Positions 1 through 50,296 of a stretch of 64,000 nucleotides of DNA are shown piece by piece. Made by a program: the position numbers and the translations under genes. This DNA comes from Polytrichum commune (Eukaryota; Streptophyta; Polytrichopsida; Polytrichales; Polytrichaceae). How positions within the stretch are numbered: position 1 is the first letter of the stretch; each line of letters starts with the position of its first letter. The notes under the pieces were generated by a model that worked only from the letters and a program-made list of their open reading frames with translations, was not told the origin of the DNA and did not search any database. Location: the NCBI GenBank assembly GCA_950295325.1, contig OX485804.1, positions 69,230,033-69,294,032 of the forward strand, read 5' to 3'.

Positions 1-2958
1 ATAGTGTATTTGACTTCATAAGTAACACCAAAGGCCCAGATTCAATCTCAAGCACTGTATGTTGGCCAAGGCTTTACAATACCACCCATGTAAGTCGAAG
101 TATAAAAAGGCTCGAAACCAACCCTCGTAGTTCGAACGATTCCTTTGTAATAGTTGAATCAACTCCAGATTCAGCACAGAAACCCAAGATTTAATCTCCT
201 GCAATCTACATCATAGGGGGGGGCATGTCTGTAGCTCACATGGAGTGCCACCAAAGGCACTTGCATTCCATGTGAATCGTGACCCAAGATTTTTGTTTGT
301 GACAACTGACTAAAAATGGGGGAGTGATAGAGCAGAGACATCATCAACCAGGATTCACAATGCCGCCCATGTAGGTTGAAGATGTTTGGGAACAGGTCCT
401 CATAACTTTGAAATACTCCTTTGTAATAGTCGACTCTGGAATTAGCACCTAAAACCCATATTTGATCTCATGCAATTTACAATGACATGAAACACCTATC
501 ACAAACCTACGTATATCACATTCAAGATGTATGATATTTATGCTCATCTCATATCGGTCTGTATCATCATATGTATATATATATATATCTGCACGAAGTG
601 CCACAACAGGTGTCTGAACACGTATCCCATGCACGTGAGCTAGCAAGGTCTATAACTTATTACTGCTTGTGATAGAACCCGAGTACAATGTGGCGGAGCC
701 ACAATGTCAAACAAAAGAAGAGTTCCTTTCGGTAGGGCGGCCAATACCGACCCGCGCAATTCAGGATCAGAACAATTGATACTGTACTAGATCGGAGTTG
801 GTTTGGTAGGGTCACAGACAGAATTCTTCTTTTCTAAATTTAGAACTCCTGATAGGGCAGTGACTGTCTGCACTGATGAAAATGTATAAAGGCCCAGTGA
901 CACCAAAGATGGGTATCCACAAACAATTCTTGTGCTTTTGTGCTCACGGCTTTCTTAGTGCTGCGATTGATTGAAGACCACTTTGAGTATCAGAGCTTAG
1001 GTGAGTGTTGTGGACCAATCAGCTAGGTTGTGATAATTCGGACCATTGTGACTTGTACTTGGTGTCTAAGCTGTCACATGATTTGGTTGTGTCTGTACAG
1101 AGTGAGTGTGAGCAAGGATATGTTCGTTTAGAGTTAGACATTAAACTTTTGTGAAAATGTCGAACATGGGATATCCTGGTTCATGTATCCAAAAGGCCAA
1201 TTTCCCAGCGTAACGCAGTGCAGTGGGCTATGTAAGATAGAGGCTAATAATAACTGGATGGTGTAATTGGAACAAAAGACTTGAAACTACTCAGTATTAC
1301 ATTCTGCAATAGGAAAGGAAACCTATCTCTAGCGTGAGAACCCAGCTGGAAAGGTGGGAGTCCGACTTTTTTTTCTGTTCACAGAAGCATCTCTGAGATT
1401 GAAATTGAGCTGATTCTGATTCTTCGTGAAATGTGCAGTTACCTCCACATTCTTGTATCCCATGGGTGACGGCAAAGCAAACACAATTGGGGCCGGTACC
1501 AGCCGATTGTTGGAGGTGCAAGGGCACGCCAAGCCAGGGCATTGCAGACCAGGGGCCTGCAAGGCAGGGCGCTGCACAATAGGGCAGCGCAATGGATACG
1601 ACAAAAGAAATCTCGTTAAGAAACAAATTGCAACAGAATGCTGTCATTTAGTCAAAAATCTGGCTTCTTGCTGCTTGGCCTGCTGCAAATTACTTTCGGG
1701 AGGTCATGTGGTCCCCGCAAATCAGGACACAGAGCCCCTCAAACTGAAAGACTAAAATCTATGGAAGCCAGATGACATCTTATGTTTTGAGTTGTACAAT
1801 AGTAGGGTTTGCTCTGGAGCCTTTTTTCACAGGGAGAATGATAGGCTTTATAAGGCTGGGGATCCTCTCTCAGGGATCTAAGGCAGGAATGCAAGAATTT
1901 GTTTGGAATAGATAACCTGTAAGAGGAGGTAGATTACTTACTGTGTGGAGCAGTGAGTCATTTGTCCTCCTCGCACTAGTTACATTAGATGACAGATAGT
2001 TGCAAAAATGTTAGGGGAGCGGAAAAAAATAAAAGATGAGCGACTCAACCTGGATCGTGGATGTACCACCACCTTGTAACATCCATGTGAGTATAGTCTC
2101 ACTTTAAAAGGCTCTACCTATGAAGTTATGCAATTTTCTTCCTCATCAAGTGGCAACGACTAAGACTCGATTTCAGGAGTCTATGTATGATAGGATTTTT
2201 CCCTCCCTCACACTATACACTCACGTATGGAGTAACCTGTGTTCATTTTCAGTGTACTGCATATTGATAGTCTTGTTGCAGCTACCACCTGCTCGGCTAA
2301 TTGAAGCATGAAACAGCACAAAGAATGGATGAGGGGTCTGCAACTAGAAATCAGATGGGTTCTGACTGTAAATTTGTGTTCACCTTGAGGGGTAAAGAGC
2401 GAAAAGGCTTAGTTACCTATGTGAATGCATGCACTCCATCAGTTTGGTCAAATTTTTCGTAAAACCCTGCAAATACAAATTTAGCAACGATTTCCTTTCA
2501 ATACCCCTTGAAGAATGCCGACCTGTTGCATCAAAACTACAACACAAGAATCTGCCTTGAAATGTCAGCCTTTTATGACATGAAGAATCATCCAGAAAGA
2601 TCCAGGTCCTTTCTACAAAAGAAGACCCCACACTTTCTGGTATTTCCTTGAACAAAGGAAGCACAGCATACACAGGAGAGAAAGTAAATTCAAAAGCTAC
2701 TTGAATCAAAGATGATTGGCTAGGCACTTTCTAATTCCCACTAAGAAGCATTACTATGGATACTACTAATCTCATATTTATCATCCCTAAAAGATCTATG
2801 GGATATAAATTTGTGACGGTACACAAGCCGCACTTGTTTTTTACTTTGTATTGTAACCTCCTTTATTAGGACTACAGTAAGAAGAATCTGGTAGTACATC
2901 TTCACTGGATCTATTTGCAGTAGATCCTACAGGCAATCAGAATTTTACCATTCCAGTG
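1..2958. other. Non-coding left flank with degenerate repeats
   Basis: No supported gene was found here. Positions 67-215 and 350-485 are diverged copies of one segment (shared pieces include ACCACCCATGTA / CCGCCCATGTA and CCTTTGTAATAGT), and a weaker relative lies near 2060-2170. At 988-998 the string TATCAGAGCTT resembles the primer-binding region that follows many plant LTRs, and a TATA-like ATGTATAAAGG occurs at about 881-891, so part of this may be a decayed LTR retroelement. No gag-pol frame accompanies it. The reading frames present are short and of low quality. Confidence 0.4.
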
Positions 2959-5900
2959 TTAGACACCCTGTGCTTCTGTACCAAACTTGGCAATTAATTT
3001 GTCAATATGAATGCAGATGTCTTCAATAGATGGTCGTGAGGCAATTGAAGGTTGAAGCATCCACGTCACAAATTGACGAAGAGTTTCGGGGTATGGTGGA
3101 TTTGGCCCAGGAGGCCAATTCACATTGTTACTCATCACAGCAAGTTGCACGCTTTCAACCTGCTCACCAAGTGCGCTCTCAAAGGGAGACATACCATACC
3201 TGTAGGACATGAACAACCAGAGGAAAGTGGAATCAGACACAAAATTGAAACATGGAATTATAAGTCAAATGATTCTCATCACCCTACCTATTTGGGCAAG
3301 GGAGGGTGCTTACATTATAGCATAGAGGGTACACCCAAGTGACCAAATATCAGAGCGCTCATCCAAGTCAATGTTGCTGGGGCAGTCCCATAACTCAGGC
3401 GCTCTGTATTGAGCTGTGCAGTGGCGCTCAGCCCAGCCCTGCAAGATGGAAGATATTCAGTTATTGAGTCTTTACAAACAGCCGTACAAAAATTTCATGT
3501 CTGATTGGGCTCGTGTTTGCCTGAAATTAATTTCCACGTCGTCTTTTGAGATGTTCTAATCACACACATGTTGACAAGTGGCACTTTTACCCAAATATAA
3601 TTAATTTTTTCCTAATCTGACCCGTGTGTAGGCTAGTGGAAAGCATGGATCTCTTAAATGTGTTGTAATCATATCAGATGCAGAAAAAAAATACCTGGAT
3701 CACAAGGGCCTCTGATCGTGAACGGACTTGCTTGTGAGCAGGTGTTGCACTACTTAACTCCATAATTACTGCTCTCGGTGGCTGGTTAGGTTGAACAGCC
3801 AGCAATACCTTTTTAGGGTTTATGTCATTGTGAGCATATGGTGGGTCATGCTTATGCATATGCTTTAAACCAGTACAAATCTGTGGAGCATATCAAGACC
3901 ACACTTTAGTACAATGAGAGATAATTACTCATATTCCTATGCACTTAAATACACAACATTTCAGGTGCAGATGAAGGTTAAGAGAGCACAATAACAACAT
4001 GTTAATCATTCAAGAAATAACTTCTGGCATTAACAAATTTTTGAAGAACTAACTGTTTGGAAGGTGCAACTCAAGCATGCAGAACATCACAACTTCAACA
4101 GAAGCAGGCTTAATGTCATCATGAGCAGTATACTTACTTGTTGAAATATATGCATAACAGTGATAGTGGGGAAAAATGTCTTCGTTTCTTGCATCTTTGT
4201 CAGATGGTCATGCAGTGTTCCATCCAGATGCAGTGGGAACAGCATGTAAGCCTCATGATTGCACTTTCCTTCCTGCAGAGCCATTCATACATATTAGGTG
4301 TGTCCTGAATTCCTAAGATATTTCATGGAAATCCTCCTATCACCCAATCTCGCACCCAAGAAGCCAAAAAATCACAAATTTGAGACCAAGGTGGATACCT
4401 TTACGCTGATTATTGAAGAGTCCACAAGCGGAATCAAATTGGGATGATGGAACAGGCGCATGATATTTATCTCCCGGTTCACTGACTCCAACTGCTCTTC
4501 TTTCTGGACTCGCACTTTCTTCAATGTATACAGGCCAGTGTCTGTGCCAACCCCACCGTCTAAAGTAGTAAGTTTGCATCCAAAAGCCAAACAAAAACTC
4601 AGTTGGTCAAACCCAGCAGCCAAAATCCAGCAGCACTGGATAGCCCCAAACATGGTGCATTGGAATTTGTGCTTGAAGAACATAAAATTCAGAGATAGAC
4701 TGATGACAAAACCCCACTTGCACTTCCAGAGAGAAATTGATTTCACGGACAAGTCAGGACAAGCGCAATAAAGAGAACCTCGATCTACAGAACTTTCTGG
4801 GTTACAACCTTTGAAAAAAACTCTTTCCAATTCACACTCCTGGTCTGCCCATAGATGTAATATCCGTTCAAATTGGTTAAAGTACCATGCGTAGCAACTT
4901 TGCAGCTTCAAGCCTGTACATTATTTACCTCATGACCGACTAGTTTCCTTGAGCAGAAAAGGTGCCACACTTTCAAGAGACTTTAGAGGTATTTAATTGG
5001 TTATCCTCGCTAAACGGTGGATAAAATTTCTCTTCGACTCAATCAGTGGAAAACATCTACCTATTCCGTCTACATCAAACCTCCTTCCCTGATTATAAAA
5101 GTGATGTCCTTGACGTTGTCATCTTGGCGATAGCTCTGGACGGAGGGGATTCGTTCCATGCAAACAAAATGAGGTGCACACTACTTGAAGGCGCTGTACA
5201 TTCATGCCACAAGATCGACATTGAAGAGAGTAGAATCTATTGGACAAGGGAAGAAAGCACTTCGGAATTACATGGGATGCAACCCAGAAAGAATGTGGAG
5301 GAATACATTCTTTCAGGACACTCCAGAGGGTTTTAGTTTGTTATCCTCGCTAAATAGTTCATAAAATTGCAGTTTGACTCGATCGGTGCAAAAATACCTA
5401 CCTATTCTGCCTACAGTGAACCTCCTTCCCAGCTTATAAGAAGCGGTGTCCTTTGAGGTATCATCTTAACGATAGCTCTGGAAGGAGGGGCTGCCCTTCC
5501 ATTGCAACAAGATCGGCAGCTAAGGAACTAGAATCTATTGGACAAGCGAAGAGAGGCCTGCAAAATTAGATGGGATGCAAGCCAGAATGTGAGAGGAACA
5601 CATTCTTTCAAGACACTCTTAGAGATTTTTTAGTTTGTTATCCTCGCTAAATAGTGGATTAAATTGTGCTTTGACTCAATCAGTGGCAGAACACCTACCT
5701 ACTCCGCCTACATTGAACCTCCTTCCCTGCTTATAAGAAGAAATGTCCTTTGGGATGTCATCTTAGCGATAACTCTCGACGGGGGGGATTCGTTGATATA
5801 AACAAAATGAGGTGCACACTACTTAAAGGCGCTGTCCAATCATTGACACAAGATCGACATCGAAGTAAAATCTAGTGGACAAGCACAGAAAGAATGTGGA

Positions 5901-6429
5901 TGAACACATTCTTTCAAGAACTTCAGAGATTTTTAGATTCTTATGTTTTCGAAATAATGGATTAAATTGCGCTTTGACTCAATCACTGCAATAACACCTA
6001 CCCTTTCAGCCTTCATGAAATCCACTTCCCTGTTTATAAGAAGCGATGCCTTTAGGATGTCATCTTGGCGATTGCTATGGACAAGATGGAATTCGGTCAA
6101 TACAAGCAAAATGAGGTGCACGCTACTTGAAGGCGCTGTACTTCCATTGCCACAAGATCGACATCGAAGGAAGCAGCATCTTTCGGACAAGCGAAGAAAG
6201 GACTGCAGAATTAGATGAGGAGCAAGCCAGAATGAATGTGGAGGAACACACCTGAGACGAAAGACGGATCCTTCTTTGCGCCAGGCTGCTCTCTGACAAC
6301 GTACACAGATGTGGAGCCTTCCTCCCCAAGTTGGCGTTGAATCCGAAATCGCCTCTTGTTCACCCACACCTCTGCCCCACTTCCTACCGTCCCATAGAGG
6401 GCATCCAACCCTGAAAATGAACAACCCAT
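2959..6429 (-). CDS. STK16-like: STK16/MPSK1-type protein kinase, predicted pseudokinase (6 exons)
   Basis: Six coding exons on the minus strand join in frame to 341 residues: 6252-6429, 4399-4559, 4138-4272, 3695-3880, 3314-3438 and 2959-3199 (stop TAA). All inferred introns are GT-AG. The protein begins MGCSFSGL, a Gly2/Cys3 N-myristoylation and palmitoylation signal typical of this family, which acts on Golgi and other membranes. The N-lobe keeps the likely ATP lysine (K73 in YTLKKV) and the helix-C glutamate (E89). The C-lobe keeps RAPEL and DERSDIWSLG. The catalytic machinery is altered: the loop reads AHNDINPKKVLL (residues 174-185), where plant relatives have a DxKPGN-type loop, and the DFG position reads ELS (199-201). 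The metal-binding Asn and Asp are therefore replaced, and the glycine loop is GEEGST. Family assignment is secure; loss of catalysis is inference. Intron 1 (1,692 bp) holds tandem repeats. Confidence 0.9.
4965..6251. repeat. Four ~300-340 bp tandem repeats filling kinase intron 1
   Basis: Four diverged direct copies can be followed by the marker TTATCCTCGCTAAA at 5001, 5341 and 5638, and its altered form at 5941 (spacings 340, 297 and 303). Each copy also carries an AACCTCCTTCCC or similar block, a TCATCTT..CGATAGCTCT block, TAGAATCTATTGGACAAG, and a GAATGTGGAGGAA-type end. The last copy runs into the 5' splice site of intron 1 on the minus strand. The array therefore looks like repeated duplication of the donor-proximal part of the intron. 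Copies have small indels and no shared open frame. Confidence 0.85.
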
Positions 6430-9009
6430 TGTTTCGACCCTCGAGCGCCTTATACCCTAGTGGGATCCCTGAATATTCCGCTATTTCGTTTCACGAGTTT
6501 CATAGAGATCGATTTGATTCGCAAACCCGCTGTTTTGTGCACCTCCTTTTGCACCTTAAAAGAGAGAAAGCGGTCGATCTCTCTTTTCTAACTTATCCAA
6601 CAGTTGGTGATAGCGAGAGAATTTGCACCTCAATGCAAGTGTCGATCAATGTGATCGATTCCCATTGAATGCACACACTCTTCTCTCTTAGTTCGCCACC
6701 ATATCTAGCATGACTAGATACCTAATTCCGCCCTGTATACATGGTGAGGGAGAACTAACTAAGATCCAAATCTTAAACCTAGAAATGCATATGGAGGTGT
6801 CACCACTTCCACATGCAACCGAAGTTGCTCCTCTCGGAAGAGCGTAGCCTGCCTTGGACCCAACCGACGAAAACTTGCCTTCACGAGATTTGTTTGAAAA
6901 GCGGGTGGTTTGCAACTTTGCCCCTAGTACCAACTCTCGGCACAGCTTGGAATAGAATAACACCTAAGGCATAATCGTTCTCAACAGTAAACCCTCCCTT
7001 TTACCAGGATCCAAATTTAGACATGAGTTCCTTCTCGATCTGCAAGTTGGAAACCCTAATACATTGATGCATCACACCACGTAAACCTCAGCACAGGATC
7101 AGGGATCCTTGCATGAGCAAAAGCTAATCTGCGCAATTAGTTTTCACTAATTCAAACATGAGAATCGATTAAGCATCCATGTTTATCCATCAGAAGTGCT
7201 GGCTCACCACTTTGCAAATTACTCACTCTCCGGCACCATATGATATCGGACCTATGTGACCGACTAGTAATTATCAACGTAAGTAGTATCTGCGGTATTT
7301 TGGCTCCATGATCTCTGTATACAATGTCGCTGCTCGCACGACGCAGTCATCTGTCACGACTCTAATTTCACAATTGTCACGATTCAACTCGGCGAGTTGA
7401 GCAAACAGGGATTTACCTTTACTTCTGGTAACCACTATCCGACGTGACGTAAGAAGAGGCTAAATATCTGCCAAAAGTGAACCGAACAAATGTTACTTGT
7501 TCAGAACGTGGAAGAATCGTGAGTTTTGAAGACATGTTTGCTGTTATTCTAGCCATTGGGAAGCATAGAAAATAACATACAATGCACTTTAGAGTGATGG
7601 GGGAACCTACTGCATGTACGAGATAAATATGGCTTCTCCATTTTTACAAAGCATCTCACGAATAACCTACAGTAGCACTCCCAAAAGTCTTCCAAGAAGT
7701 AAGTTAAGGCAGAATATAATAAGTAGGTCGAAACACCTACTTACACATTAACATACTTTGAGATCCTCATGAGGCCGTGTCATGGAGGCTCTTGACATCT
7801 GTAAGATATGATTTACCAATCTAAACATAGATATTTCGTCTTTATAAATTGCCAGGTCAAATGTTATGCTCGCCTCTAGGCGACACAAAGCCATGCTACC
7901 CAGACTAGTCGCATCAATCATTGCCAAGAAATGACCTAGTTTTATTCGCTCTTATGCTGTGAGTAGATGACAGCGGAGATATGAGTGGGTCCAGCTCTTG
8001 GTCGTGTACCATCATATGTACTTACATCGTGTCAAGGAAGTTATATTTCATGCACATCGTGGAATATAACTAAGTTACCGTTAAGTAGTGCAGAATCCCT
8101 GTTCGATGTCAGTCACCCTTTCACGCTCCATGTAGCAGTTGTGCTTGCAGCCAGGTCTGCTGTAGATGTGAGCACAATTCAAGCACAACAAGGGCCTTGT
8201 CTCTCCAATTGCATCAAATGGTATCCATTGAGGTTGGTGCTGAAGGACCCTACACTAATGAATCACATCTTCAATGGTTTGCCAAATTAACAGAATATTG
8301 ATTCCGTCCAAACTCCATCAAATACATCCTTGGTATTTCTCTTGACCTCCGGTGCTTCAACTTGTTTCTTTAAAACGCATGGCAGAGCAGTTTCTACAGT
8401 GTCAACGTAAGGAAAGCATATTTGGAAAAATAAGATACTTGACTAGCAGAAAATAACTGGTATGAAATGATTCAGAGGTACACATAATCATGCACTTTCT
8501 ATAAACTTCCATTTTGCACAGCGCAGCATGATTCTCAGCTTTGCATGACAAAACTCAGCCAACAGAATGGGTTCAGTCTGGTTGTACACCTTTTCATCTA
8601 TTTCACATCCTGCAAAATAGACAGAAGCAATACGTTGATTGTTTTGAGTCAATGAGCAGACTCTAGCACAAAGAACGTGACTTTCACAAGAGGAGCTGTA
8701 AGTATAATATAGTTGGCAGCTTAAGGTTCTACAAGGTCTATCATGTGGACAATGCAGTCAAGATTGCAACAATGTTGTTTGCCCGAGTGCTACACTCCCC
8801 AGCCCATCTAGTATAACCGCTAAAACTCTTGAGGTCATCAAGTGCACATTCCACAAAACTCCTGTGGCATTCCTGCATAAAGGACCAGTACAGGGTCTAA
8901 GTCCAGAACTTCCAGGCCATGCAATCACACATGAGACAACACAGTTGTGATAACAACAAAGCATAGTTCCCTCAGCCAACCTCTTAGGACTCCACGGAAC
9001 GTTACCATT
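6430..9009. other. Intergenic DNA upstream of the kinase gene
   Basis: This stretch contains the kinase 5' flank (minus-strand gene, start codon at 6429) and the far 3' side of the HYPK gene. No conserved protein, RNA gene or clear element was recognised on either strand. Short frames at 6688-6963, 7985-8290 and 8758-9030 have no recognisable domains. Confidence 0.5.
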
Positions 9010-9583: not shown

Positions 9584-9907
9584 TCATCTAAGGAAGGATC
9601 GAATGGCAGCGACAGCATCCCCCTTATGCTCTCGCAGCGTCCTCTCCGCCACCTTCCTGTCGATCTCAAGCTCGCTCGCAATAACGTCCACATCTTCAGC
9701 ATTGATCTTCACAGCAGCCAATTCCTTCTCCCGGAGCCTCTGCGCATTTCGATCAGCGTCCGAGTTGGCGGCGATCGAGGCCATCGCCTGCTGCACACGA
9801 GTGGAGTCCAGCTGCCGGTCTTCCACATGGTCGGTCAATGAGTCCAGCGCCTTGCTCTGCTGCTGCAAGTCCTTCGAGTCCAACGTTGGAGCTCCCTCGT
9901 CCGCCAT
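9584..9907 (-). CDS. HYPK: HYPK, NatA-associated chaperone-like protein
   Basis: A single minus-strand exon of 107 codons plus TGA. The start is set at ATG 9905-9907 (AAGATGGCGG, strong context), giving MADEGAPT. An upstream in-frame ATG at 9982 would add 25 residues that do not resemble the family. The protein carries the family core KDLQQQSKALDSLTDHVEDR, then RVQQAMASIA, then the C-terminal UBA-like three-helix segment (about residues 62-107) with REKELAAVKINAEDVDVIA and ERTLREHKGDAVAAI. HYPK binds the Naa15/Naa10 NatA complex at the ribosome; in plants it promotes N-terminal acetylation and protects proteins from turnover. Length and content match plant orthologues. Its 5' flank is the source of the repeat field that follows, so promoter function may be affected by copy-number changes. 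Confidence 0.95.
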   Translation of the reverse strand: MADEGAPTLDSKDLQQQSKALDSLTDHVEDRQLDSTRVQQAMASIAANSDADRNAQRLREKELAAVKINAEDVDVIASELEIDRKVAERTLREHKGDAVAAIRSFLR

Positions 9908-13753: not shown

Positions 13754-16700
13754 CTACTCTGAAGAAATTTTCACACCTTGAAGGCCACTGTCCAGATCTG
13801 TCTTCCCAAGATCTCCAAAGGAAACCTCTGAAGCAGACAAAAATGCTGCAACTGGGTTTCCTGGTGTTGGAGGTGATTGATTTAGCTGAGCCTTGTGCGA
13901 GCCTGCCATTTCCAATGCATCTGTGTCTGTGAAGGAGTAGATCTTCACATTGTCCAGTAAAAGCTGACTTGTGATGAAGTCCAGATTCTCCTTCAGAACT
14001 TCCATTTCTCCAAAGGGCAGCTTGAGGTCCAATGCATGCTCACCCACTGCAAGTGTCTCATCCTTCTTGAACTTTATAAAAGGCATACATTGCTTCTGAA
14101 TCTGCTTGAAGTCCGACTGTTGACCTATGGCACTACTCTTAAGAGTAGCTAGAATTTCTGAGTCCGGAGAGAAGCTGTGTGTGCTTGAATGGTATTTACT
14201 TTGCAAAATCTTCATACATTCCTCTTGCCAGCCACCATACCTCTCTGCAACAAAGATCAATGCCACGGAAGGCTTCGAAACTGGTGGGGGAGGTGCACCC
14301 TTTGCACCCTGCTTGACTTTCTTGGGTGCTGACTGTTTCTGTAGTAACTTTCTGAGACTGATAATTACGTCTTGCAAGTACTTGTTAGCCCGTTGCAAGG
14401 TCAAATCCTTTGGACGACTGACCATTGGCCATCCTGCCTTGACTGCAAATCCCTCTTTCTTGAACATGTCAGACCAAACATACTCTGCATAATGTGGACA
14501 GATGGGAGTGATGAGCCTTGTCTGCACATCCATAAACCTCCAAACCAGATCCTTGTGCATTCCCGCTGATCCACATGCCAACCTATACTCATCCCGGGCA
14601 GTTTGAAGATCATAGAAACCAGATTTCAAAGCATCCCTAAACATCATGGAGTTGTAATTCTTTTCAGTCTCTTCAATGGCAATATTTATTTCATTCTCAA
14701 ACACCCGGTCTGGAAAAGAGGCCGCAGGCCCTGTACGGAGTGCCATCTCCACCCCAATCACTTGCTCCATCCATGCTAACTCCTTCGTCAGACGCAATAT
14801 TGCAGAATTGGCTGTCTCAAACACAAAGTTAGCATCATCCATGGCGTCACCGGCATCAGCCAACGCAAACCTTGTAGCATCAGCTGAGAACAGGTCGATG
14901 GATGAGAGGATGGTCAAGAAATTGCCTGTGGATTTCGACATCTTCTCAGAATTCAATAGGAGATGACCATTGCATCGGAAACCCAACGGCCATTTCTCCT
15001 TTGGAAACATTGCTGTGTGGTTGTAGATGCAGAAAGTCAGATGGTTTTGAATCAAATCCTTCCCTGACACACGAAGATCAAAAGGATACCAGTACTCAAA
15101 TTCGCCTCTCATCTTCTGTAGAAGATCAGAGGGTATCCTTGTTTCAGGCATGGGACCTTCTTGGAAGATATAATCCCAGACCTCGTGAGTCATTTCTTCT
15201 GGTTGTATAGGACCCTTGGCCCTCCCATACAAATCGCCGGACTGTAGGAAATGAGCTACTGTGTAATAGGCCATGTAGATTGTAGAATCTGACAGAGATT
15301 CAATCAAAAACTGGGGGTCCCAAGGCACCCGTGTCCCTAGACCGAATGAACGTGAGCAAGCCCACTGGTTAAGCCACCCCAATGTGTGCTCAAACCCATG
15401 TCTGGTCTCATCGTTGTAAAGCTCCATCCCCTTCAGGCACACCTCAGATAGAGCTTTCCATTCTTCTTCACCGTACATCAAGTACCACTGATCTGTGAGA
15501 GCAACAATACACTCATCCCCTGACCTAGACATCACCTTCTTCTCTGGCTCACTGTAAGGGATCGCCAAGTCTTCTTGCTCTAACATCTTTCGGATCAAGG
15601 GTTTGGCATCCGACACCTTGCTTCCCTTGTGTTCTCCAATTATCATGACTCCGTCTGTGAATCCCTTCTGATAAGTCAACCTCTTAGCTTCTGCCAATTT
15701 GTCCTTGTCGTTCTGGCTCTGAATCTTCAAGTCCGTGCACACCTTCTCTGCGGCGACATCTCCAAATCCAGGGATGTTGATGATGGGTATAATTTCAAAT
15801 GGCATAACCCACTCATCCTTCACATTGAATTTCTGACGCAACGCAGGCTTTGACTTGAGATCCTTCATGGCCATAAAATCATCTGGTGAGTCGCTGGGCA
15901 CGCTCGTCACAACTCCTGTACCTTTGTCTGTGAGAATTGTGAGCATGGGTAACACATAAATGGTAGGATATGAAGTGAGAGGACTTTTCAAAGGAAGACC
16001 AATCAGATCATGCCCAGTGAGCTCCACCAAACAAGTGGGCTTCTCCAGGACTCTGGATTTCCTTTGATATGCAAGGTTGAGAGCAGCACGCTTGGTAACA
16101 ATGAACACATCAGTGTCATTAATCTCAAACGCGCCATACTGACCATCAGGCAACACCCATGCATTTGTCTGCCCGTACATTGTCTCAGGCCTCAAAGTGG
16201 CCGCAGCAAGAAACACCCTCTTCCCAGTCAAACGTTCAAGCTTTCCAGTGAACGGAGCCTGGACTTCCATCTTGATAAGGGTGTAATCCTGAGGCTGGGC
16301 ACCCTCACCTGAAGCTCTATCATGATCAGCACATGGCTGGCCATCGAAAGGAGAGTAAATTGCATACCGTGTATCTTTGATCACCTTTCCTTTGTTCTTC
16401 AAACTCTGCAGATGCCATCTCACAAACGAATCATAATAAGGATTCATGTCAGTCGTAACAAACGACCTCCGCCAATCCACTCCACATCCCAAAGCCTTCA
16501 AATGCTCCTTCGCCAAAGGTGGAAAGTACTCCAACCAGTACCCCGAGTCTTGGAACTTGGAAATCTCCTCATCCTCCAACCCTAGAGATTGCATAATCTC
16601 CCATTGGAATTTGGCAGTTCCGGTCTTAGCAGCAGCCTTGGACTTCTTACTCTTAAACTTCTCAGGCTCCGCCCTCTCCACATCCTTCACAGCCGGTGCA

Positions 16701-17110
16701 GCGGCAACAGCACTCAAATCTTTCTCTTCGTCTCGCTCAGGAAACACCGGAGGGTTTCCGAATTGCTCCACCTCTCGAGAGAGCTTATCCGCACATGCCT
16801 TGATTGGCATACCCGTGCAATGGAAGCCAAAAGGGAATAGAACCTCTCTGCCTCTCAATCTGTGGTAGGCGGCTGCAAATTCCACCTTGGACACCGTGAA
16901 TCCATGGCCCAGATGTAGCAAACCGTTCATGTAAGGGTACGGGAAATTGCCGAAGAACTTCTCCCCTTCCTTTGGCCGCTCTGCCTTCGCTTCCACCTCG
17001 AACACCTTCCCTTCCTCCCATTTTTTCTGCACGGATTTCTCAATCTCCAGCAGCTTGTCACGGCGAACGTGGCTCTTGGGGCCGTCCTTGGTTTCCTTGG
17101 TGTCCGCCAT
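13754..17110 (-). CDS. LeuRS: Leucine--tRNA ligase, cytosolic type
   Basis: An uninterrupted minus-strand frame of 1,118 residues from ATG 17108-17110 (CGCCATGGC context); the cytosolic plant enzyme is of similar size. It charges tRNA-Leu with leucine using ATP. The class I HIGH motif is HLGH at residues 66-69, preceded by FPYPYMNG. The KMSKS motif is present exactly at 723-727. The CP1 editing domain is recognisable from TLRPETMYGQTNAW and from SVPSDSPDDF near residues 403-412, which includes the aspartate region used for hydrolysing mischarged tRNA. The tail is the long archaeal/eukaryotic C-terminal extension. A further in-frame ATG at 17176 would add 22 residues (MQILQRSAEFRDHSHRT...), basic and hydroxylated enough to be a weak organelle signal; the internal start is preferred from context and family comparison. 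No frameshift or missing catalytic element was seen. Confidence 0.97.
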   Translation of the reverse strand: MADTKETKDGPKSHVRRDKLLEIEKSVQKKWEEGKVFEVEAKAERPKEGEKFFGNFPYPYMNGLLHLGHGFTVSKVEFAAAYHRLRGREVLFPFGFHCTGMPIKACADKLSREVEQFGNPPVFPERDEEKDLSAVAAAPAVKDVERAEPEKFKSKKSKAAAKTGTAKFQWEIMQSLGLEDEEISKFQDSGYWLEYFPPLAKEHLKALGCGVDWRRSFVTTDMNPYYDSFVRWHLQSLKNKGKVIKDTRYAIYSPFDGQPCADHDRASGEGAQPQDYTLIKMEVQAPFTGKLERLTGKRVFLAAATLRPETMYGQTNAWVLPDGQYGAFEINDTDVFIVTKRAALNLAYQRKSRVLEKPTCLVELTGHDLIGLPLKSPLTSYPTIYVLPMLTILTDKGTGVVTSVPSDSPDDFMAMKDLKSKPALRQKFNVKDEWVMPFEIIPIINIPGFGDVAAEKVCTDLKIQSQNDKDKLAEAKRLTYQKGFTDGVMIIGEHKGSKVSDAKPLIRKMLEQEDLAIPYSEPEKKVMSRSGDECIVALTDQWYLMYGEEEWKALSEVCLKGMELYNDETRHGFEHTLGWLNQWACSRSFGLGTRVPWDPQFLIESLSDSTIYMAYYTVAHFLQSGDLYGRAKGPIQPEEMTHEVWDYIFQEGPMPETRIPSDLLQKMRGEFEYWYPFDLRVSGKDLIQNHLTFCIYNHTAMFPKEKWPLGFRCNGHLLLNSEKMSKSTGNFLTILSSIDLFSADATRFALADAGDAMDDANFVFETANSAILRLTKELAWMEQVIGVEMALRTGPAASFPDRVFENEINIAIEETEKNYNSMMFRDALKSGFYDLQTARDEYRLACGSAGMHKDLVWRFMDVQTRLITPICPHYAEYVWSDMFKKEGFAVKAGWPMVSRPKDLTLQRANKYLQDVIISLRKLLQKQSAPKKVKQGAKGAPPPPVSKPSVALIFVAERYGGWQEECMKILQSKYHSSTHSFSPDSEILATLKSSAIGQQSDFKQIQKQCMPFIKFKKDETLAVGEHALDLKLPFGEMEVLKENLDFITSQLLLDNVKIYSFTDTDALEMAGSHKAQLNQSPPTPGNPVAAFLSASEVSFGDLGKTDLDSGLQGVKISSE

Positions 17111-17455
17111 GGCGAATCCAAGCTCTGTGCGGTGGCTATGGTCTCTGAACTCTGCCGAACGCTGCAATATCTGCATATTGAGGTTTAGGGTTTAGGGTAC
17201 CCGGTGATGGTACCGGCCGGGTATGAAAGAGTCTGCCAGGGTGTCTGAGGTCCGAGGTGGGTTTCAAGCGGGTATTGTGTGGGTACAGGTTCCGGGGCAG
17301 TTATCGTGCCGTGCTTTGCAAGCGTCAAATGTCCCCAATCTCCGAAAGAGGAAAGAAAATAAAACTTACCAATTCCACTTACGAGTTCTAATTTTAGTTG
17401 CGTAACCGATTGCTCATCTAGGTCGAGGGACGGAATTCTCGTATACCGAGTGTAC
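17111..17455. promoter_or_regulatory. LeuRS 5' flank (leader and presumed promoter)
   Basis: This is the upstream side of the minus-strand LeuRS gene. It is richer in C and G than the DNA to its right. No unequivocal TATA box or other element can be assigned by eye. The frame at 17185-17466 has no recognisable domain. Confidence 0.35.
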
Positions 17456-19432: not shown

Positions 19433-21305
19433 GACCCAAGATCTTTTGGACATCTTATGAATAAAATAATGAATGGATTAGTAAATAAGGAGATCACACA
19501 TGACCTTTGCCGCACCAATAAAAGCAGATTAGGGATTCCTAATCTCAATCTTGTGGTGAGTCGCCAATGCAAGTTGCCACGTGGCACATTGTATATTTTA
19601 AAACACGAGACAAGTGCCGACATTGTTACTGGCTTATTAAAATCATCCAGTTCACTTGTTTTTAAAAGCCTCCCCCGACATCCAGCCTGGCACGGCCCAC
19701 GCGCACAATTCCCAAGGTGTCCGACGGGTGTGTCACTGGACCAAACCTACACATCCGACATGGACCCCCGTACTTCCTTGCTGGCCCGGGACGTGGACAA
19801 AGCTCTCGTCTGAGATGGCGCCCTTTGATTGGTCAAAGCCGGCTCCTACTGACGTGCGATCCGATCTGGTCGTTTCGTCAGCGTTGCAGCTCGCTCGCAC
19901 GAGCGAGCTTCTATCTAACTTATGGCGACGATGTCTCTTGCGGTGCTCCTTCTCATCATTCGTAAGCTCGGCCGGGAACGATCGATCGACCGACGGTCCT
20001 TTCGTTTCGTTTCGTTTTCATTTGTCGACGGAAGCCTTTCGTTTCGTTTCGGTTCAGTTGTCCCGGAGTTTCTGTATTCCGTTGCGCTTTTCTCGATCCC
20101 TTGGCTGTCCAATTGGTGCCAGAAACGAAGTTTGTTCTCGATCATCGGTAAGCTCAAGCTAACGGTGGCACGGGGTGAAATTCGGTTCGAAGGTCTCTCG
20201 TCGTGACGAAGCTTTGGAGTACAAGGACTGTTAGGAGTATCATTAGCAGTGGCTTCTTTAGTTTAGGTAATAGATTTTTGACCTGGAGGTCATCAGGTTA
20301 CAGGGTTAGGCTTGGCTATGGCTTGGCTGAGTGGAGGCTTTCATCGGGGTGTTGTTCAGCTATTTTGTGCACTTGAGTAGTGTTTTCCAGCCATACAACG
20401 GAAGACCTCGACCAGTAAGGTAAGCAACCTTGGTTTAGGTTTTACAGTGGCATGTCGGTTCTGTGATGATGTTGCATTTCTCGTGTGCTGTGATGATGTG
20501 AACTCTTTTGTATGACTTTCGTTCGCGACGTTCGCCATTGTGGTGTTCTCAGATCCTAATTCGCTAACCAAACTAACACATCATCATGGGATTGAGGCAT
20601 TGCCCTACGTATTTGATCTGATCCTCGTTTGTCTCCAACGTAGGTGGAGAGATCGTCTCTATGTCTATTAGGGTTGTTCTGCCTTTGGAATCGCATTTTC
20701 ACCCAGACTGAGTGTTGTTGTAATTGAACCTGTAGTTAATGTTGGGCAAATTCTTGCCACGACACATGCCCTTGCCATCATCTGGTCCCTGAAAGCATTC
20801 CAATTTGGTGGAATTTTGCAGCGGTCAGGAAATTTCATCAGGAGTTTTCTTAAATTTTAGTACTGAATTTGCGAAAAGTGCCATTCTTAAGGTCACCTGA
20901 ACAAATTTTGGCGGAGCTCCTTCGTTTGGTGATTGCTGAGGAGCTCATCTGCTCAGCATCGTTTCCCGATTAGGTTTTTGGAACTCGACAACGACAACAA
21001 GTCTTTTAAAAAGGGAGTTCGAAGGCTTGTGGCAAAAGGTCATACAGAGAAGAAGACAATGCAGAGAGAATTCACGGGGAATTTCAGAGAGAAACAGGGA
21101 AGCCGCTGTTGCAGATGTAACAGATGACCGAATGGTGAAATCTTTAGCGTCTGAATGATTGCTCCGCAGGGAAGAGTGCAGGTCTTGCACTACTTGGATG
21201 GTCTCAAATCTGCAACTTCAAAAGAAGCGCACGAATTTTGGTAATTCAAGTTTTGTGTAACTAAAGCAGTACAAAATAGATACCGCGGAGGATCCTGTAT
21301 TGGCC
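19433..21305 (+). promoter_or_regulatory. CpG-rich 5' region of the MINDY gene
   Basis: From about 19680 the base composition changes to C/G- and CpG-rich, unlike the flanking DNA, as expected for a promoter and leader of the plus-strand gene starting at 21306. A 22-base near-perfect palindrome, AGCTCGCTCG-CA-CGAGCGAGCT, lies at 19888-19909, and a G-box palindrome GCCACGTGGC at 19576-19585. TTTCG tandem repeats occur at about 20003-20055. CAGTAAG followed by GTAAGC at 20413-20425 is a good donor for a non-coding first exon, with a possible acceptor AAAGCAG near 21264-21270. The leader intron is inference. Confidence 0.5.
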
Positions 21306-24300
21306 ATGGGGGAGCATGATGACGAAGAGCTTCAACGGGCTTTTCGCATGAGTCTGCAGCCTGCCCCTGATGCCAAGCGGAGCAAACCTCGTGATGTTGC
21401 TGCTGCAGGAAGCACAGAATCTCCGGAAGCATTGGACCGGCGAGTACAGCGGGAGCTTCGAGCAGCTGCAGCCGAGCAAAGGAGATTATCAGCTCTTGGG
21501 ACTACTACCCCTGGAACCCATGATCCCTCATCATCCTCACTTTCTCTGGAAAATACTCTCGCAGCTTCTCCTATTGCCAGTGCCAGACACCGGTTGGTGG
21601 AGCCTCGAGTGGCCACCACCAAGCTTCCTGATCGATCAGAAGGCCTGAACCCATTGCGGGATGCTGCTGCTGAGAAAACCAACCGAGGCAAGAGGAGAGT
21701 GGAGGATGAGCGGCAGCAGCTCCCTTTGCGGACAGTGGAGCAATTGTATACCCTAGTATTTGGTACCAAGGTTTCCAAGGACGTCCTCAGTCAGTGGTGC
21801 CACCAAGGCTTTAGGTTTGATTTCAAACCTTCTTCTTATTTCCTGACTTGAGAACTTGTGTAAAAGGATGACCCAGCAATGATACACTGAAATATTTATC
21901 GGCAAGCACTAATTTATGTAAGAAGAGGTCATCACGCTCAAGTCACTAGTTCAGTAGCAGACCATCAGTAGCAGAAATATGTACTCTACATTTTGGAAGT
22001 CTGGAACTGTGAGGGAACATGGGCATTGCTGCAGTCGCCATTCCAGAAATCCAAAAAGGTCAACAGTGGAGCAATTGTACCCTAGTATTTAGTATGAAGG
22101 TTTACAAGGACGTCCTTAGTCAGTGGTGCCACCAAGGCTTTAGGTTGAATTTCAGACCTTCTTTCCTATTTCTTGACTTGAGAATTTGTGTAAATGGAAA
22201 ACCCAGCAATGACACATAGAAATATGGTTTGGCATGCAGTCATTGAACTTGAATTTTTAAATAATTTAATAAGAGGTCATCATGGTCAAGTTAATAGTTC
22301 AGTAGCAGAACTATCAGTACCTATATTTTGGAACTTTGGAATGGTGAGGACGCATGGGCATGGGCATTGATGCAGTCGCCGTTCTGAAGTTCCAAAAAGG
22401 TCAAGTGGCGTTGGCAGCATGTTGAGCAGATGGAGCAGGGACAATTTGGGACAATCCATGTGCATGGGTGCAATGGGCCAGGATGGCATGGGCCCAAACT
22501 ACATGCTTGTCTGTGTAGACATTCTATACTGAAAATTGAAAGCCTCCAAAGTGAAATAGATATGCAAGGTCCATTGTGGATGTCGCAGCTTTTGCAAAAT
22601 ATAGGGACATTAACAGTGCATACTGCTACACTGGAGCAATTTTGTGTGGGTTTTCAATGGATTTTTAAGTCCACTTCTCCAGCATGTGTGATGTTTGTAG
22701 ATACTATTGAAGCTCATGCTGACAGGATCGACTGAGACCTAAACTACTGAATTCTTGGATATCTATGATTTCATTTTGGGTCAATAAGTTTAATTTCGTT
22801 CTTTGTTCATTATTGTGGTGTCAATGTGATTTATAGAAGAAGTAACATTGATAATGAAAGGGGCAGAATGTGAAACTGTTATTGTTGATGCCACGGATCA
22901 TTTTAGAGGATTCAGACAGTGGTTTTTGGATATTGCAGGTTTAGTCCCGATCAAGAAACATCACTAGGTCTTGTGCAGCGAGAAGGGGGGCCTTGTGGAG
23001 TGCTAGCCCCAATACAGGTCAGTGTGTGTAATATCTGAAGGTGTTACCAACTCTCTATACTTAGTTATACAGGGACTCTTGTATCTTTACGTCCCTTACA
23101 CTGGTTACCCTCCAGTTGGTTTTTAACATTTTCATCCTCATCTTACTAAAGCTTTGCTAGAAGTATGAGGAGTTGCAAGTCATTGTCTATTACTGTAGTG
23201 GAATCTTCGAGTCATCAGGAATGAGTTGGATATACTATGCCCCATGTGTAACTTGAGGGCTCAACTTGGTTTCACATTGAGATAGAGGAGCAGTTCTGCT
23301 TACAACTTAGGAGTATAAGGTCCTCAGCTTCTCTACTTGATAGTCACCATTCTCGTTTTGCTGATGTCATGTGAAAGTGCCCAATGTTGTGACTGCCAGA
23401 TCATTGCTTGAAGAATAGATTTTGAAATGGTGAGAAAGGTTGTTTGTATCAGGCACTAGTCCTCAAGTACCTCCTTTTTGTTACGGAAGACGAGATGGAC
23501 ATTAGTATGAGAGGCAAATCCATGGTGCGGGCTTCTCCATTGAAAGCAGTCCAGAATGTCAACAGTGAGACACTTGATGGCAATCTCATTTTCTCAGATG
23601 CTCAGCGAACTCGGTAAGTTTTGAACCAGGAGTTGGTCTCAACAGAAAGTTCTATCTGTAGTATGTTGATCATTACCAATGTAAACGACCAGTTTGAGCA
23701 TTGATTCTCAAGGTGGTTCTGTTTGACATGTTTCATTCTATATTTTATATTTGACTATTTGGAAAATTTGCCTTACAAATGGCCTGCTTTGTCTTATATG
23801 CTTCATTCTACTTAATTGCATGAGTTACATCTGTAACAGTAAAGAAACGACTCAGTGGGAACTTGGGATAGTGGAATGGCAAAAGTTTAGTGACAGACGT
23901 GAGGGAGTTGTAAAGTTCTTCACATGTACTTATTTACCATGTCACTCAAGTTCTGGAGCTGCTTGTTATAACAAATGCACTTTGCTTGTGATGTCATAGT
24001 CCTTTTATTGCATATCACATGATACTCTTCCAAAGAAAAGTGCTTGACCTTCTTTATAGTGAATACAACCCATTTTTTGATCCCTCATTGGGTAAAAGCA
24101 CCTAGGTCAAAGCTTTTCCAACCTTAACCTTCTGCCAGATGTGCCCCTTCGTCAAATTTTACCCCTATTATATGTTCTCAGCTACAAGTGGGTCTCTAGC
24201 TCTTTAGTCTCTGGTATGATTATATGCCACATCATTATTCACAGCCTGGTTACCTTTATCCACAAAGTATTGTGTACACCATACTTTAAGGATAGTTATG

Positions 24301-27300
24301 GGTATAAAGCTTCAAACAACTATTTGTGGAAGCTAGTTCAGTCAGGAATCCAACTACTATTTCTGTTCTTTGCAGGGCTCTTGTTCATGCCATTGGGGAG
24401 ACGCTTTGGCTTGCAGGAGGTAAACGTAAAGCTGTGGTTGCTGTTCTGGATATTCCCGAGATCTATGCTGAAAATGGTGGTAGTGAAGAAGAGCAGGATG
24501 AGGTTCTCATTCAAGCCTGTGCTTGAAGTTTCCTTGTATATTATATTTAAGCATATTTGAATTTGCGGTTTGATCTGCTGTGATTTAGTTGACTGTTTGA
24601 CAATTACCACACACTGATTTTAGCAATAGCTGTGTGTCCTAAATGACTCTTCCCATCAACATGTCTTTTACCTGAGAGATCTACTCAATATTGTAAAAGT
24701 GAGCAAATAACTGTAGTATGGTTGTATTAGTATGAAGGATCTGTTTCTGCATTTCTTAAAAACGATGTTGCTGAACATTTCCTGCATAGCTATGTCACGT
24801 ATTTGTTCAAACCTTGCTGAAATTTGTTGGCGCAGGTTGTTACAAAGGCTCTGGAAGGGTTGTGCCTTGATTCTGGGAAGGAGCTTCATAGATTGTTGAG
24901 AGTGTGTACAGTGACATCTCTCTCGGCCCTTCATCAACATCTCCATAATCTGCTTCCTGGATTCAAGAGTCCATTGGGAGCCCTTTTACTTCTATTCTCT
25001 ATTCTCCTGTCAAGGGGCGTGGTAAGTACTTCACCATGTTCATGCTCTTATTGCGTACTGATGGACCTTTTGCAATCGAACTTTTATATGGATTCAGACA
25101 TTGCAGATCATTAGTGCTCAGCTGTTGAAAGTGAAGATTTACTAAGGACTGGATGAATGGATCTCCTTGTTACCTGAGCTGTATTGTATTTAAGTTAGGA
25201 CACATGTTTTGTTTTGCATCCACTGATGTATTTCAAAAGCACTTGAGAGTCGTGTAATGGTAATGTGGTTGTATCTTATATTTGGATTCATCTGATAAAT
25301 CATTTTCTACCAGGAATTAGTACACACAGACAGGGATGATTCTGATCAGCCGCTGGTGACACCCCCATTTGGTCATGCCTCGCAGGTAACATATCTGCAT
25401 ACACCTGGATCCATTAACTTTTATCAAATAGAACTCATCTTTGAGCGAACCTGGAAATGCCAATTGATCTCTGAAGATGTGTGGGTTTCCTCATGGTACC
25501 CTAACAGAGAATAAAACAATAGATTCAGGAAGGTAACATAGTTCAGTGTCTAAATGTTGAGCATCAATGAAGAAGGTTGCCATTGAAAGTATGAGCTTTC
25601 TTCTGAAAGTAAAATTCTTCTTCAACTGCAGACATAGCAAAGTTGTATAGTCTGAAAGTATACATATATGATTCCCATTGTTATGAAGTTTTAACCCTTC
25701 AATGTCAACCAAACCCTGTCGGGGGGCCTTGGAGACAAGAAGATGAAAATTTTGTTGTTGATAAGATCTTTAGTCATTTCTTCAGTCATCATCAGTAACC
25801 TTCTTGAATTAGCTGATTCTTCTAATGATTCCTCTTATTGAAGAGATAAGTTGAAATTAGGGTGTAAGTATGGTCAAGTATGTGAAAGAACCAGTGTACA
25901 GTTCTATGCAATGCCTAGTCTTTTTAGTCAGGATGATTGTATTTTATGTATCTTTCAGCCCATGTTGTGCATAACACAGGTTTGAGCCTTGGGCCACAAT
26001 TTCATCAGATTGTTTATGATTAGTTGCAATCAAATCTTATAAATGGATTTTTGGCATGTCAAGAAGTTGAATTTAGTTTTCACCTGTATGGATTTAATCT
26101 TCAAGTGATTTGTAACACATTTTCTTGCAATGTAAACAATATTTGAGAATTGAAAGTCTTTTATCTTAAGTAATCTGGAGTTTTAAAAAGCACCTTTGAC
26201 CTTTGACGGTTAAGTTGTTGTCTGTACCTCTAATTTCAGGTAAATTGTTCTTTATGTTATCTGATGTACCCAAAGTTGTTGTACTGGAAAATATCAGCCT
26301 TGTGGAGAAGTTTGGAAGTTTAGTAATCTTGTGCTTGTTGGCAAGTTTGTATTTTCGTAGGCTGCCTCTTGGGTGTACATTTGTGCATGAAATCTCTCAA
26401 GATTGAGAACACTCCCTTACAATGCAGGAGTCCGGGATAATCTGCTTTCAGTCATTTTCATATTATTCTCCAATGTTTTGAATAGAGGGAATTCCAGAGG
26501 CAAAATCTTATGTTAGTTGATCTGACTGAAGCACAGTTTGGATTTTTTTCCAAGGGAGAATTTAACAATACTGATGTCCTTATATTGTGCTAAATGCAGG
26601 AAATTGTAAACCTCTTCCTATGTGGGCAGGCAGTAAGCCATGTATTTGATGGGAACATTGACTTGGGCGGTGGGATGTGTCTGAAGGGAGTTTCAACAAA
26701 TGTTGAAGTGGGCTTTCTGTCGCTCCTAGAAGCTCTCAACCTTTGCAAAGTTGGACACAACTTCAAATGCCCCAAGTGGCCTATTTGGATTATAGGAAGT
26801 GAATCACATTACAGCATTCTGTTTGCACTCAGTCCAGCAGTGCAAGAGGAGACGGACCTTGAGGACCGTGAAATGCGGGTGCGTCAAGCTTTCGATGCCC
26901 AAGATCAGAGTGGTGGAGGTGGTTTCATAAGCCCCGAAGCCTTACAACAACTACTCCTAGACCTGAACATTGACATGCCCCAGGACATGCTGAACAACCT
27001 GTGCAGCAGTGACATTGTGGTGTGGAATGATTTATGGCAGGCTCTTTTGACGATTGACAAGAGCAAAGGTGGGTTGAAGGATCCTTCGACGACACTTGGG
27101 AAACGACAGTTTGAAGTCTTCCACTTCAATGGCATTGCCAAGACCGTTGCGGCCAGTGGAGACCTCACGCAGCAGCGGCCACGGTTGACAAAAATCCGGG
27201 TCTCTGTCCCTCCCAAGTGGACACCTGACACTGCCCTTGTGGAAGAGTATAAAATCAGTCAAGGTGAGGTTTCCCAAGGCGCCACCGAGGGCATTCCTCC

Positions 27301-27400
27301 TCCCGAACCTGCGCAACATGCACCTCTTGTGGATTGTATCCGCACACGGTGGCAACGTGCAACTTGTAATTGGACAGGCGACCCTCCGAGTATTGTATAA
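21306..27400 (+). CDS. MINDY-3/4-type deubiquitinase with UIM (7 exons)
   Basis: Exons 21306-21814, 22939-23017, 23453-23613, 24376-24502, 24836-25021, 25314-25385 and 26600-27400 join in frame to 644 residues. It corresponds to the plant MINDY-3/4-like (FAM188, DUF4205) family, cysteine proteases that trim Lys48-linked ubiquitin chains. Residues 5-18 (DDEELQRAFRMSLQ, starting just after MGEH) fit a ubiquitin-interacting motif. The catalytic cysteine is C189 in EGGPCGVLAPIQ, with Q183 upstream as the likely oxyanion residue, and the histidine is H448 in GSESHYSILFAL. An EF-hand-like stretch, FDAQDQSGGGGFIS, lies near 476-489, and the tail HAPLVDCIRTRW...GDPPSIV is family-typical. All introns begin GT and end AG, but the donors of introns 1 (TTTAG/GTTTGA) and 4 (GATGAG/GTTCTC) are weak. 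Start ATG 21306 is the first in frame; a TTG just upstream is not a start. Confidence 0.92.
21734..22415 (+). repeat. Tandem duplication of MINDY exon 1 end and intron 1 start
   Basis: The segment beginning AGTGGAGCAATTGTA at 21734 recurs at 22065, a 331-bp period. The second copy repeats the last ~80 coding bases of exon 1 including the donor (CACCAAGGCTTTAG then GTTGAA at 22141), the start of the intron and its downstream AGCAGTTCAGTAGCAG-like and GGGCATTG.TGCAGTCGCC blocks. The duplicate has lost two bases (TATACCC to TACCC) relative to exon 1. It still encodes KVYKDVLSQWCHQGFR in a shifted reading frame. It lacks an obvious acceptor, so it is probably a non-functional exon copy. Confidence 0.88.
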
Positions 27401-48531: not shown

Positions 48532-48981
48532 TTAAGGGTTAATACCCTCACATACTTCTCTCACTATGATTGAAGCACTTGACTTTGAAATACCATACAA
48601 ATCGGCAAGTGTATGCAAAGTATCACCGGTTGCCAATCGATGCAATGTCAAAGAAATTCTACACTCTATTGGAATACAAAGTCTTAATTTTGTATCTTTC
48701 TTGCTCAACATGGGTCCAAGCAAATGACATAAATAAATAAAAGTTGGCTTACTCACCCATACACAATCTTTGAACATTTTTGCATTATATGATCCAAGAA
48801 GAATTTGTGACACATATCCACTTGGCTGGTCAAATTTCCACACCACCCTCTCCTTGCTCCCAAACAAAAAATATGCCATCATCATAATTGAAGCATTATG
48901 GTGATACATGATGGTTTTTTGTATCGCCATAGTTGAAACGATAAAATACTTCAAAACCATAAAGATCATAAGAGAGCACAA
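48532..48981 (-). pseudogene. Truncated Harbinger-type transposase
   Basis: The frame of 149 residues contains the N-terminal region of HARBI1-like nucleases: FKDCVWVSKPTFIYLCHLLG, then LSKKDTKLRLCIPIECRISL, then LHRLATGDTLHTLADLYGIS and a helix-turn-helix-like ASIIVREVCEGI. It stops right there, before any of the DDE catalytic domain, which normally follows for over 200 residues. The remaining element has no continuation. The protein could not catalyse transposition; it is described here as a broken copy and the upstream 40-odd residues before the conserved block may be non-native. Confidence 0.88.
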
Positions 48982-50296
48982 AATCTCTCAGGGAGTACAC
49001 TATTCATTAAAACCAAGCATCACGTGCGTGCATGCCCCTTATTAAAATACCCCTGTATACATTTTATTTTTGCTAAAATCAAGCAATATACATACAAATC
49101 TCATTGCTTCAAAATACATTTCCATATGTACACAAGGGTCCAAAAACAAATACAGAAATTGTATATAACATGTGTACAAATGTTTGGAAATGCAAAAATA
49201 TGGCCCTATTATATGTATAATATCAAATCATGGATTTTTAGTTATAAAGTCGTTACTTAGTGGATGAAAAAACACATGATTCTTGGTCCAGGTCTGACTT
49301 GAACGCGTAAACGAGTAAATGCGTACTTTACATATATTTTTCTATAGCCTCATGTATATCTACTTCTTGCTTAATAGCAATATGTCTCTTGTACGTACAT
49401 TTTGTACATGCTTGTTTTAAATAATACCCCTTTTGTGCACCCACGTGTATAAATACAGTACTTGAATAGTGCACTCCCTAGGCAAAATCTCTCTTCTTCG
49501 ATTATCCATGATTGAAGATCAAAGATAAGAAGAGAGAAATTGATGAGGATGATTAAGAGGAGAGCATGTCTTAAATAATACCAAAGAGTAGTGCTTTGTC
49601 CAATGTGTATGGGTTTTCCCCTCTTCATTCTTAAACACCCAAGGAGACATTTATTTCCTACATGGGCCAAACTTGACAATTGGCAATTTGGCAATTTTCA
49701 TTATATTTTGAATAAAATTGAACATTATATTACACAATTCTTGTTGAAATCTTTTGATACAATGTGAATGTAGAGAATTATGGTTTTTTATCACAAAAAA
49801 TCTTCACCATTAGGTGAACTTCTCTTCACCGGTGGACTTCTCCGCTAAACTTCTCCTCTAGGTGTTTAGACTTCAACCGGTCAAGACTCCTTAAGAAATA
49901 TTTTATTGCCTACCTTTAATTCTTCTCCGGCACATCCACCATTTGCCTCATATAACCATGTCTTGGCCAAGCATTCTTGACCGACCGGAGGCCTTCTCCA
50001 CCGTAGTGTAAACCGGCCCTTAGAGTACTATGAAAACCAAACCGAATAACACCCACATGCCTTAATAGTAGTAGATCAAAAGAATATAAGGGCCGGCTCC
50101 ATGCCAAAGCAAACATGAATGGAGAATATCTTGAGACTGGAGTAAGTTAGTTGGCACAATGACACGCTTTGTAGGACGTCCCTCGATTCCCTAATTAGTG
50201 ATTGTCCTCGTCCTTAGAATAAAGGACAATACTACCGGTTTTGTTATTGAATAAATCAGAACTGCAAGCCTTGCTGAGTCCCAGTGTTAGGACTTA

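Follow-up and report, generated by a model that had tools for sequence, protein, structure and literature searches.

Analysis of a 64,000-nucleotide stretch of the Polytrichum commune genome (the window) revealed an STK16-type pseudokinase gene, hereafter W (positions 2959–6429, minus strand, six exons), in which residues of the phosphate- and metal-binding site are replaced, while a second full-length copy with the usual residues, hereafter P, lies 9.0 Mb away on the same contig. The reading that we favor, with somewhat better than even confidence, is that W is an old duplicate that is no longer competent for phosphotransfer and has been retained in a binding, competitor or scaffold role. Judged from its active-site residues, W is very probably devoid of normal phosphotransfer, and we think it probable that it is retained as a working gene. 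Should both hold, it is quite likely that the role is one of binding, competition or scaffolding, and if all of this is granted, there is an even chance that W acts on the pathway of P itself.

The genome searched was a 407.8-Mb assembly of 64 contigs, seven of them 42–78 Mb in length, in which the window corresponds to C2:69230033–69294032. The reading frame of W is open with no internal stop, and all five introns have GT-AG borders, as the initial annotation had stated. On the minus strand, exon 1 (6252–6429) contains the MGC acylation signal and a degenerate glycine loop, exon 2 contains YTLKK and the αC Glu, exon 3 occupies 4138–4272, exon 4 (3695–3880) contains the catalytic loop and the DFG equivalent, exon 5 (3314–3438) contains YRAPE and DIWSLG, and exon 6 (2959–3199) encodes the end of the C-lobe and the stop codon. 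Two acceptors are available for exon 2: the outer one (exon at 4399–4559) gives a product of 341 aa, and the inner one (exon at 4399–4541), which is in frame and 18 nt inward, gives 335 aa and lowers all residue numbers past the exon 1/2 junction by 6. Since an acceptor of the outer type breaks the frame of P, whereas its inner counterpart keeps P in frame, the inner acceptor is preferred for W; the coordinates, strand, frame and residue numbers of the initial annotation are correct for the 341-aa model. With the inner acceptor, the introns are 1710, 126, 257, 256 and 114 nt long. Much of intron 1 is taken up by a diverged array of about four direct repeats of approximately 300 bp (4970–6261), with segments 62–91% alike, the last short match of which enters the end of exon 1 slightly, at the donor region.

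With the 341-aa form as query, W was recognized as a protein kinase (Pfam Pkinase, 106 bits), and the closest solved structure was human STK16 (2BUJ, 148 bits), followed by GAK (96 bits); P scored 154 bits against 2BUJ. The likeness of W to STK16/MPSK1 of the NAK family, represented by the human protein and by intact P, includes the best sequence match, a Gly2 with a nearby Cys, and a DFG-to-APE activation segment that aligned without a gap to human STK16, with the Tyr of YRAPE kept. Gly2 and Cys3, a putative acylation signal, are present in both W and P; human STK16 is described as acylated at Gly2, Cys6 and Cys8 (PMC6480182) and so differs from W in having its Cys residues at 6 and 8 instead of at 3. 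The STK16 subfamily of NAK kinases is further characterized by an atypical activation segment with a helical insert (ASCH), by a Tyr198 that precedes APE and by intact catalytic residues; several of the last are altered in W, and for this reason W is named here an STK16-type paralogue and not an STK16 kinase.

Comparison of the motifs revealed GEEGSTSV, YTLKK, HNDINPKKV (3806–3832) and MELSS in W, where P has GEGGFAFV, YALKK, HNDLKPGNV and MDFGS, respectively; eight motif codons distributed over three exons differ between the two. Positions such as Gly52 and Asn171 are cited in PKA numbering, and the roles of these residues are partly general background. For the remainder we followed PMC4718504, in which a pseudokinase is defined as missing at least one of the VAIK Lys, the HRD Asp and the DFG Asp; W has Glu at the DFG Asp and keeps the VAIK Lys and the HxD Asp. 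Relative to both P and human STK16, the equivalents of Gly52, Lys168, Asn171, Asp184 and Gly186 are changed in W, while Lys72, Glu91, Asp166, YRAPE, Asp220 and Arg280 are kept. The spliced translation agreed with the initial annotation in placing K73, E89, APE (from residue 233), DIWSLG (from 250), N179 and K182 of the catalytic loop, and E199 of ELS (3752–3760). Its list of damage was right for the catalytic loop and the DFG position but overlooked changes in the glycine loop, where Glu37 (codon 6319–6321) stands at the Gly52 position, aligned with Gly in P and human STK16, and Ser39 replaces the loop-tip Phe, as well as the Thr that replaces the VAIK Ala. At the DFG position human STK16 has DLG, and its Leu was suggested to be a functional replacement for Phe in the 2BUJ paper (PMC2194165); the Leu in the middle of ELS by itself therefore represents no damage.

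Some features speak against a loss of phosphotransfer, namely that the change from Asp184 to Glu is conservative and that Lys72, Glu91 and Asp166 are kept. W might accordingly be an atypical active kinase that retains the Lys, the αC Glu and the catalytic Asp and handles ATP by means of the Glu replacing Asp184 together with other residues, and a precedent exists in the Arabidopsis pseudokinase ILK1, for which PMC9403797 mentions confirmed activity. We consider this improbable, as the Asn171 and Gly52 equivalents are altered along with Lys168, Asp184 and Gly186, and in VRK3 the acidic residue that occupies the Gly52 position helps to block the pocket (PMC4718504). With metal- and phosphate-binding residues lost and an intact paralogue present in the same genome, the pseudokinase status that the initial annotation had proposed for W is supported at the level of sequence.

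The second STK16 copy with intact motifs, for which the initial annotation had suggested a search, was found as P at C2:60236481–60240117 on the plus strand (the search matches span 60236481–60240102, and the full model ends at 60240117). Its product is 343 aa, it has the same six-exon layout as W with introns of 1343, 523, 201, 419 and 119 nt, and 239 of 334 aligned residues (72%) are identical between the two. The search of the moss's own genome at E ≤ 1 gave at least 112 matches, 118 of the 339 first-look candidates having been scored, so that the counts are lower bounds. Twelve of the matches were the six exons of W and the six of P, and no third STK16 copy was seen among the matches listed, the other 100 being only 20–39% identical.

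The sequence of W is known from a single assembly, and its appearance might stem from misassembly, from an uncommon allele or from a normal catalytic loop encoded by an exon that escaped detection. This is very improbable in our judgment, since eight motif codons in three exons are altered, W differs from P throughout, and W lies within a 70-Mb contig. Likewise, the motif changes are unlikely to have arisen by chance or from one sequencing error, because P has the usual residues in the same assembly and the eight differing codons fall in three exons. Another exon supplying an intact catalytic loop, which the initial annotation had named as a finding that would overturn its reading, was sought by protein match to the intact exon 4 of P over window positions 2001–7500, and no alternative exon 4 was found there. 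The best other match was AHDDIKPASVEVV (4126–4088, minus strand, intron 3; 13 residues), which has neither the metal-binding Asn nor DFG and is in another frame; its E value was 0.09 with the intact exon 4 and 0.39 with the whole of P as query, and its resemblance to an intact catalytic loop is probably due to chance. A further match, MDEGSAT (7 residues, 2325–2345, E 1.5–5.2), is on the opposite strand and outside W.

Both copies retain introns, and the duplication therefore took place via DNA and not via spliced RNA. The neighbors of W, HYPK and cytosolic leucyl-tRNA synthetase, had no second match in the genome. A comparison between the 80 kb surrounding P, which comprised 918 open-frame pieces, and the 104 kb surrounding W detected the STK16 exons along with many mostly short matches; among the 40 DNA-level matches listed there was one 203-bp stretch with 99.5% identity, and an ORF near P (60276443–60277516) had 54 residues matched at 46% (E 6e-14) in the surroundings of W. 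The short matches in the flanks recurred at several places and were for that reason read as dispersed repeats. No common gene block was seen between the 80 kb and the 104 kb, so a block duplication was not adopted as such, and the origin of the two copies may be a dispersed duplication, or an old block duplication followed by gene loss. Relatives of the gene were also looked for by pattern matches outside the moss: none of 141 such matches in viral contigs was a relative, and of 121 in other genome contigs only one was, a distant bacterial kinase at 28% identity that was not used. It is encoded at 3001–3756 of contig L041 of a Candidatus Obscuribacter MAG, the 28% identity to P referring to the best segment (query residues 24–271).

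Pairwise comparison of W and P over 334 aligned codons gave 57, 51 and 157 differing sites at codon positions 1, 2 and 3, respectively. By four methods, dN was 0.166–0.175 and dS 1.14–2.18, and dN/dS, which the initial annotation had proposed to determine, was 0.12 (NG86), 0.145 (LWL85), 0.15 (ML) and 0.08 (YN00), the range of 0.08–0.15 being a mean over two branches with dS near saturation. Three of the methods covered both the N-terminal and the C-terminal part and gave similar values for the two. If all amino-acid changes are assigned to W and dS is halved evenly, dN/dS for W alone would be about 0.3 at most.

The distribution of changes was examined with human STK16 as the sole outgroup, a distant one (identical to P at 101 and to W at 93 of 270 sites). 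W and P agreed at 199 of the 270 sites, W alone had changed at 19 and P alone at 11, and all three differed at 41; 19 versus 11 was not significant (p = 0.20). The 19 changes of W fall among the 101 sites at which P equals the human protein. The active-site set comprises 13 sites, 7 of which differ between W and P, and of the active-site residues common to P and human STK16, 6 of 12 were changed in W, compared with 13 of 89 others (p = 0.009). The excess depends on the set, the sets having been chosen by us from the PKA numbering: 5 of 7 were changed for the phosphate/metal site (p = 0.002), 3 of 6 for a six-residue set (p = 0.08), 4 of 9 for the Hanks invariants of phosphotransfer (p = 0.06), and 4 of 12 for all Hanks invariants versus 15 of 89 others (p = 0.16), p-values that serve as guides only because the sets were picked after the motifs had been seen. 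Among the structural residues of the C-lobe, 0 of 7 were changed. Outside the 13-site set, W alone had changed at 13 sites and P alone at 10 (p = 0.68). These alignments suggest that the surplus change of W sits in or near the active site and that the remainder alters about as in P, the small number of sites allowing no more than large differences to be seen.

Simulated neutral drift of 0.57–0.71 substitutions per site (half of the LWL85 and NG86 dS, starting from W or P) produced a mean of 12–13 stops, and none of 1000 runs was free of stops; long neutrality of W is thus excluded. At 0.1 per site 2–3% of runs were stop-free, and at 0.05 per site 13–14%, which leaves room for a recent decay. 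The statement in the initial annotation that the gene does not look dead is accordingly borne out by the open frame, the splice sites and the low pairwise dN/dS, but does not extend to a loss of constraint in the recent past. W would in that case be a recently decaying duplicate, its catalytic changes being early damage without present function; P could cover the function, and the strict Hanks set gives no significant excess of change at the active site. We nevertheless find this unlikely: the frame of W is unbroken and free of stops and its GT-AG sites are all present, a uniform 0.05 substitutions per site would by our own estimate hit about 1.5 of the 13 catalytic codons as against the 7 that differ from P, and by two of the residue sets the changes cluster in the active site, while the structural residues of the C-lobe are spared.

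Under the preferred reading of W as a retained, non-catalytic duplicate, an old duplication of a canonical plant STK16-type kinase would have given rise to W and P, after which W would have lost much of its phosphotransfer machinery and kept the rest of the kinase domain together with the N-terminal acylation signal. The W product would bind ATP-Mg poorly or never and would reside at the Golgi or plasma membrane by way of acylated Gly2 and Cys3. There it may hold partners or compete for them, most simply those of P, and hence tune P. The membrane-anchored scaffold suggested in the initial annotation is a plausible role of this kind. By analogy with kinase-dead mutants of the human protein, W could act as a competitor, since it would be a naturally inactive form that keeps its acylation signal. 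Kinase-dead STK16 E202A is reported to bind actin like the wild type and, when expressed in human cells, to raise the share of cells with a fragmented Golgi (PMC5353726), and also, in hepatic cells, to impair soluble cargo secretion (PMC6480182). STK16 Tyr198 mutants that are off the Golgi return upon kinase inhibition, from which the authors concluded that the inactive form is Golgi-resident (PMC6801969). Against such a role for W, STK16 is described as needing kinase activity for its actin- and Golgi-related functions in human cells (PMC5353726), and its membrane location as depending on autophosphorylated Tyr198 (PMC6801969); the latter counts against W because a dead W would be unable to phosphorylate its own Tyr198 equivalent.

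A more specific and rather doubtful proposal is that W is a charge-swapped, nucleotide-free STK16, in which the residues at the Gly52 site (Glu) and the Asn171 site (Lys) are joined by a salt bridge that spans the empty cleft and replaces ATP-Mg. The domain would then be locked in a closed, kinase-like state and could serve as a constitutive membrane decoy that antagonizes P in Golgi or secretory trafficking.

Parallels to W are found in several known pseudokinases. VRK3, like W, is a pseudokinase beside active relatives (VRK1 and VRK2), with an acidic Gly52 site and the Lys72–Glu91 pair kept; this residue is Asp in VRK3, where it protrudes into a pocket with no nucleotide bound, and Glu in W, and in VRK3 bulky residues also fill the purine pocket (PMC4718504). 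VRK3 belongs to another kinase family than W. STRADα resembles W in that its Asn171 site is basic (His, as against Lys in W), and it is described as binding ATP without a cation, with the Arg of a GLR motif in place of the cation, and as acting on LKB1 (PMC4718504). W differs from STRADα in ELS and in its acidic glycine loop. BIR2, BSK8, CRN and DRIK1 are known as receptor-like or receptor-like cytoplasmic kinases and are not known to belong to the NAK/STK16 group. Similar to W, they are plant kinase-domain proteins with degraded catalytic motifs (for BIR2 and BSK8, PMC4718504). Loss of kinase function by a duplicate is a known route, as described for VRK3 (PMC4718504) and BUBR1 (PMC3591445), and as an example of a pseudokinase that arose from a duplicate W is good but rather ordinary. 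According to PMC6480182, STK16 is conserved in all eukaryotes, and in the accounts cited here the separation of its catalytic from its non-catalytic functions relies on engineered mutants and on an inhibitor used in human cells (PMC5353726, PMC6480182, PMC6801969). A naturally crippled W beside an intact P would help to split catalytic from non-catalytic functions of STK16. No plant STK16 pseudokinase was found among the titles listed, in a body of literature from which most subscription journals are missing.

Several other observations were made in the window and on the contigs. The HYPK gene is at 9587–9907 (minus strand; UBA_HYPK, 70 bits; one match in the genome), and the cytosolic leucyl-tRNA synthetase is at 13757–17113 (minus strand), where one frame runs without interruption for about 1118 aa and includes a RagD-binding domain; it has one genome match at E ≤ 1e-10. 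TTTAGGG-type repeats were present at three of four contig ends inspected, the fourth (L057) having 1500 N in 4000. At 48535–48987 (minus strand), HTH_Tnp_4, a DDE-endonuclease helix-turn-helix, scored 20.7 bits, below the 27-bit cut-off, and our guess is that this fragment is a transposon remnant. Exons resembling a MINDY-3/4 deubiquitinase were located at 21261–27397 (plus strand), with MINDY-3_4_CD at 26594–27397 (107 bits), and UIM-like matches under the cut-off at 21309–21848 (plus strand) are perhaps the start of this gene.
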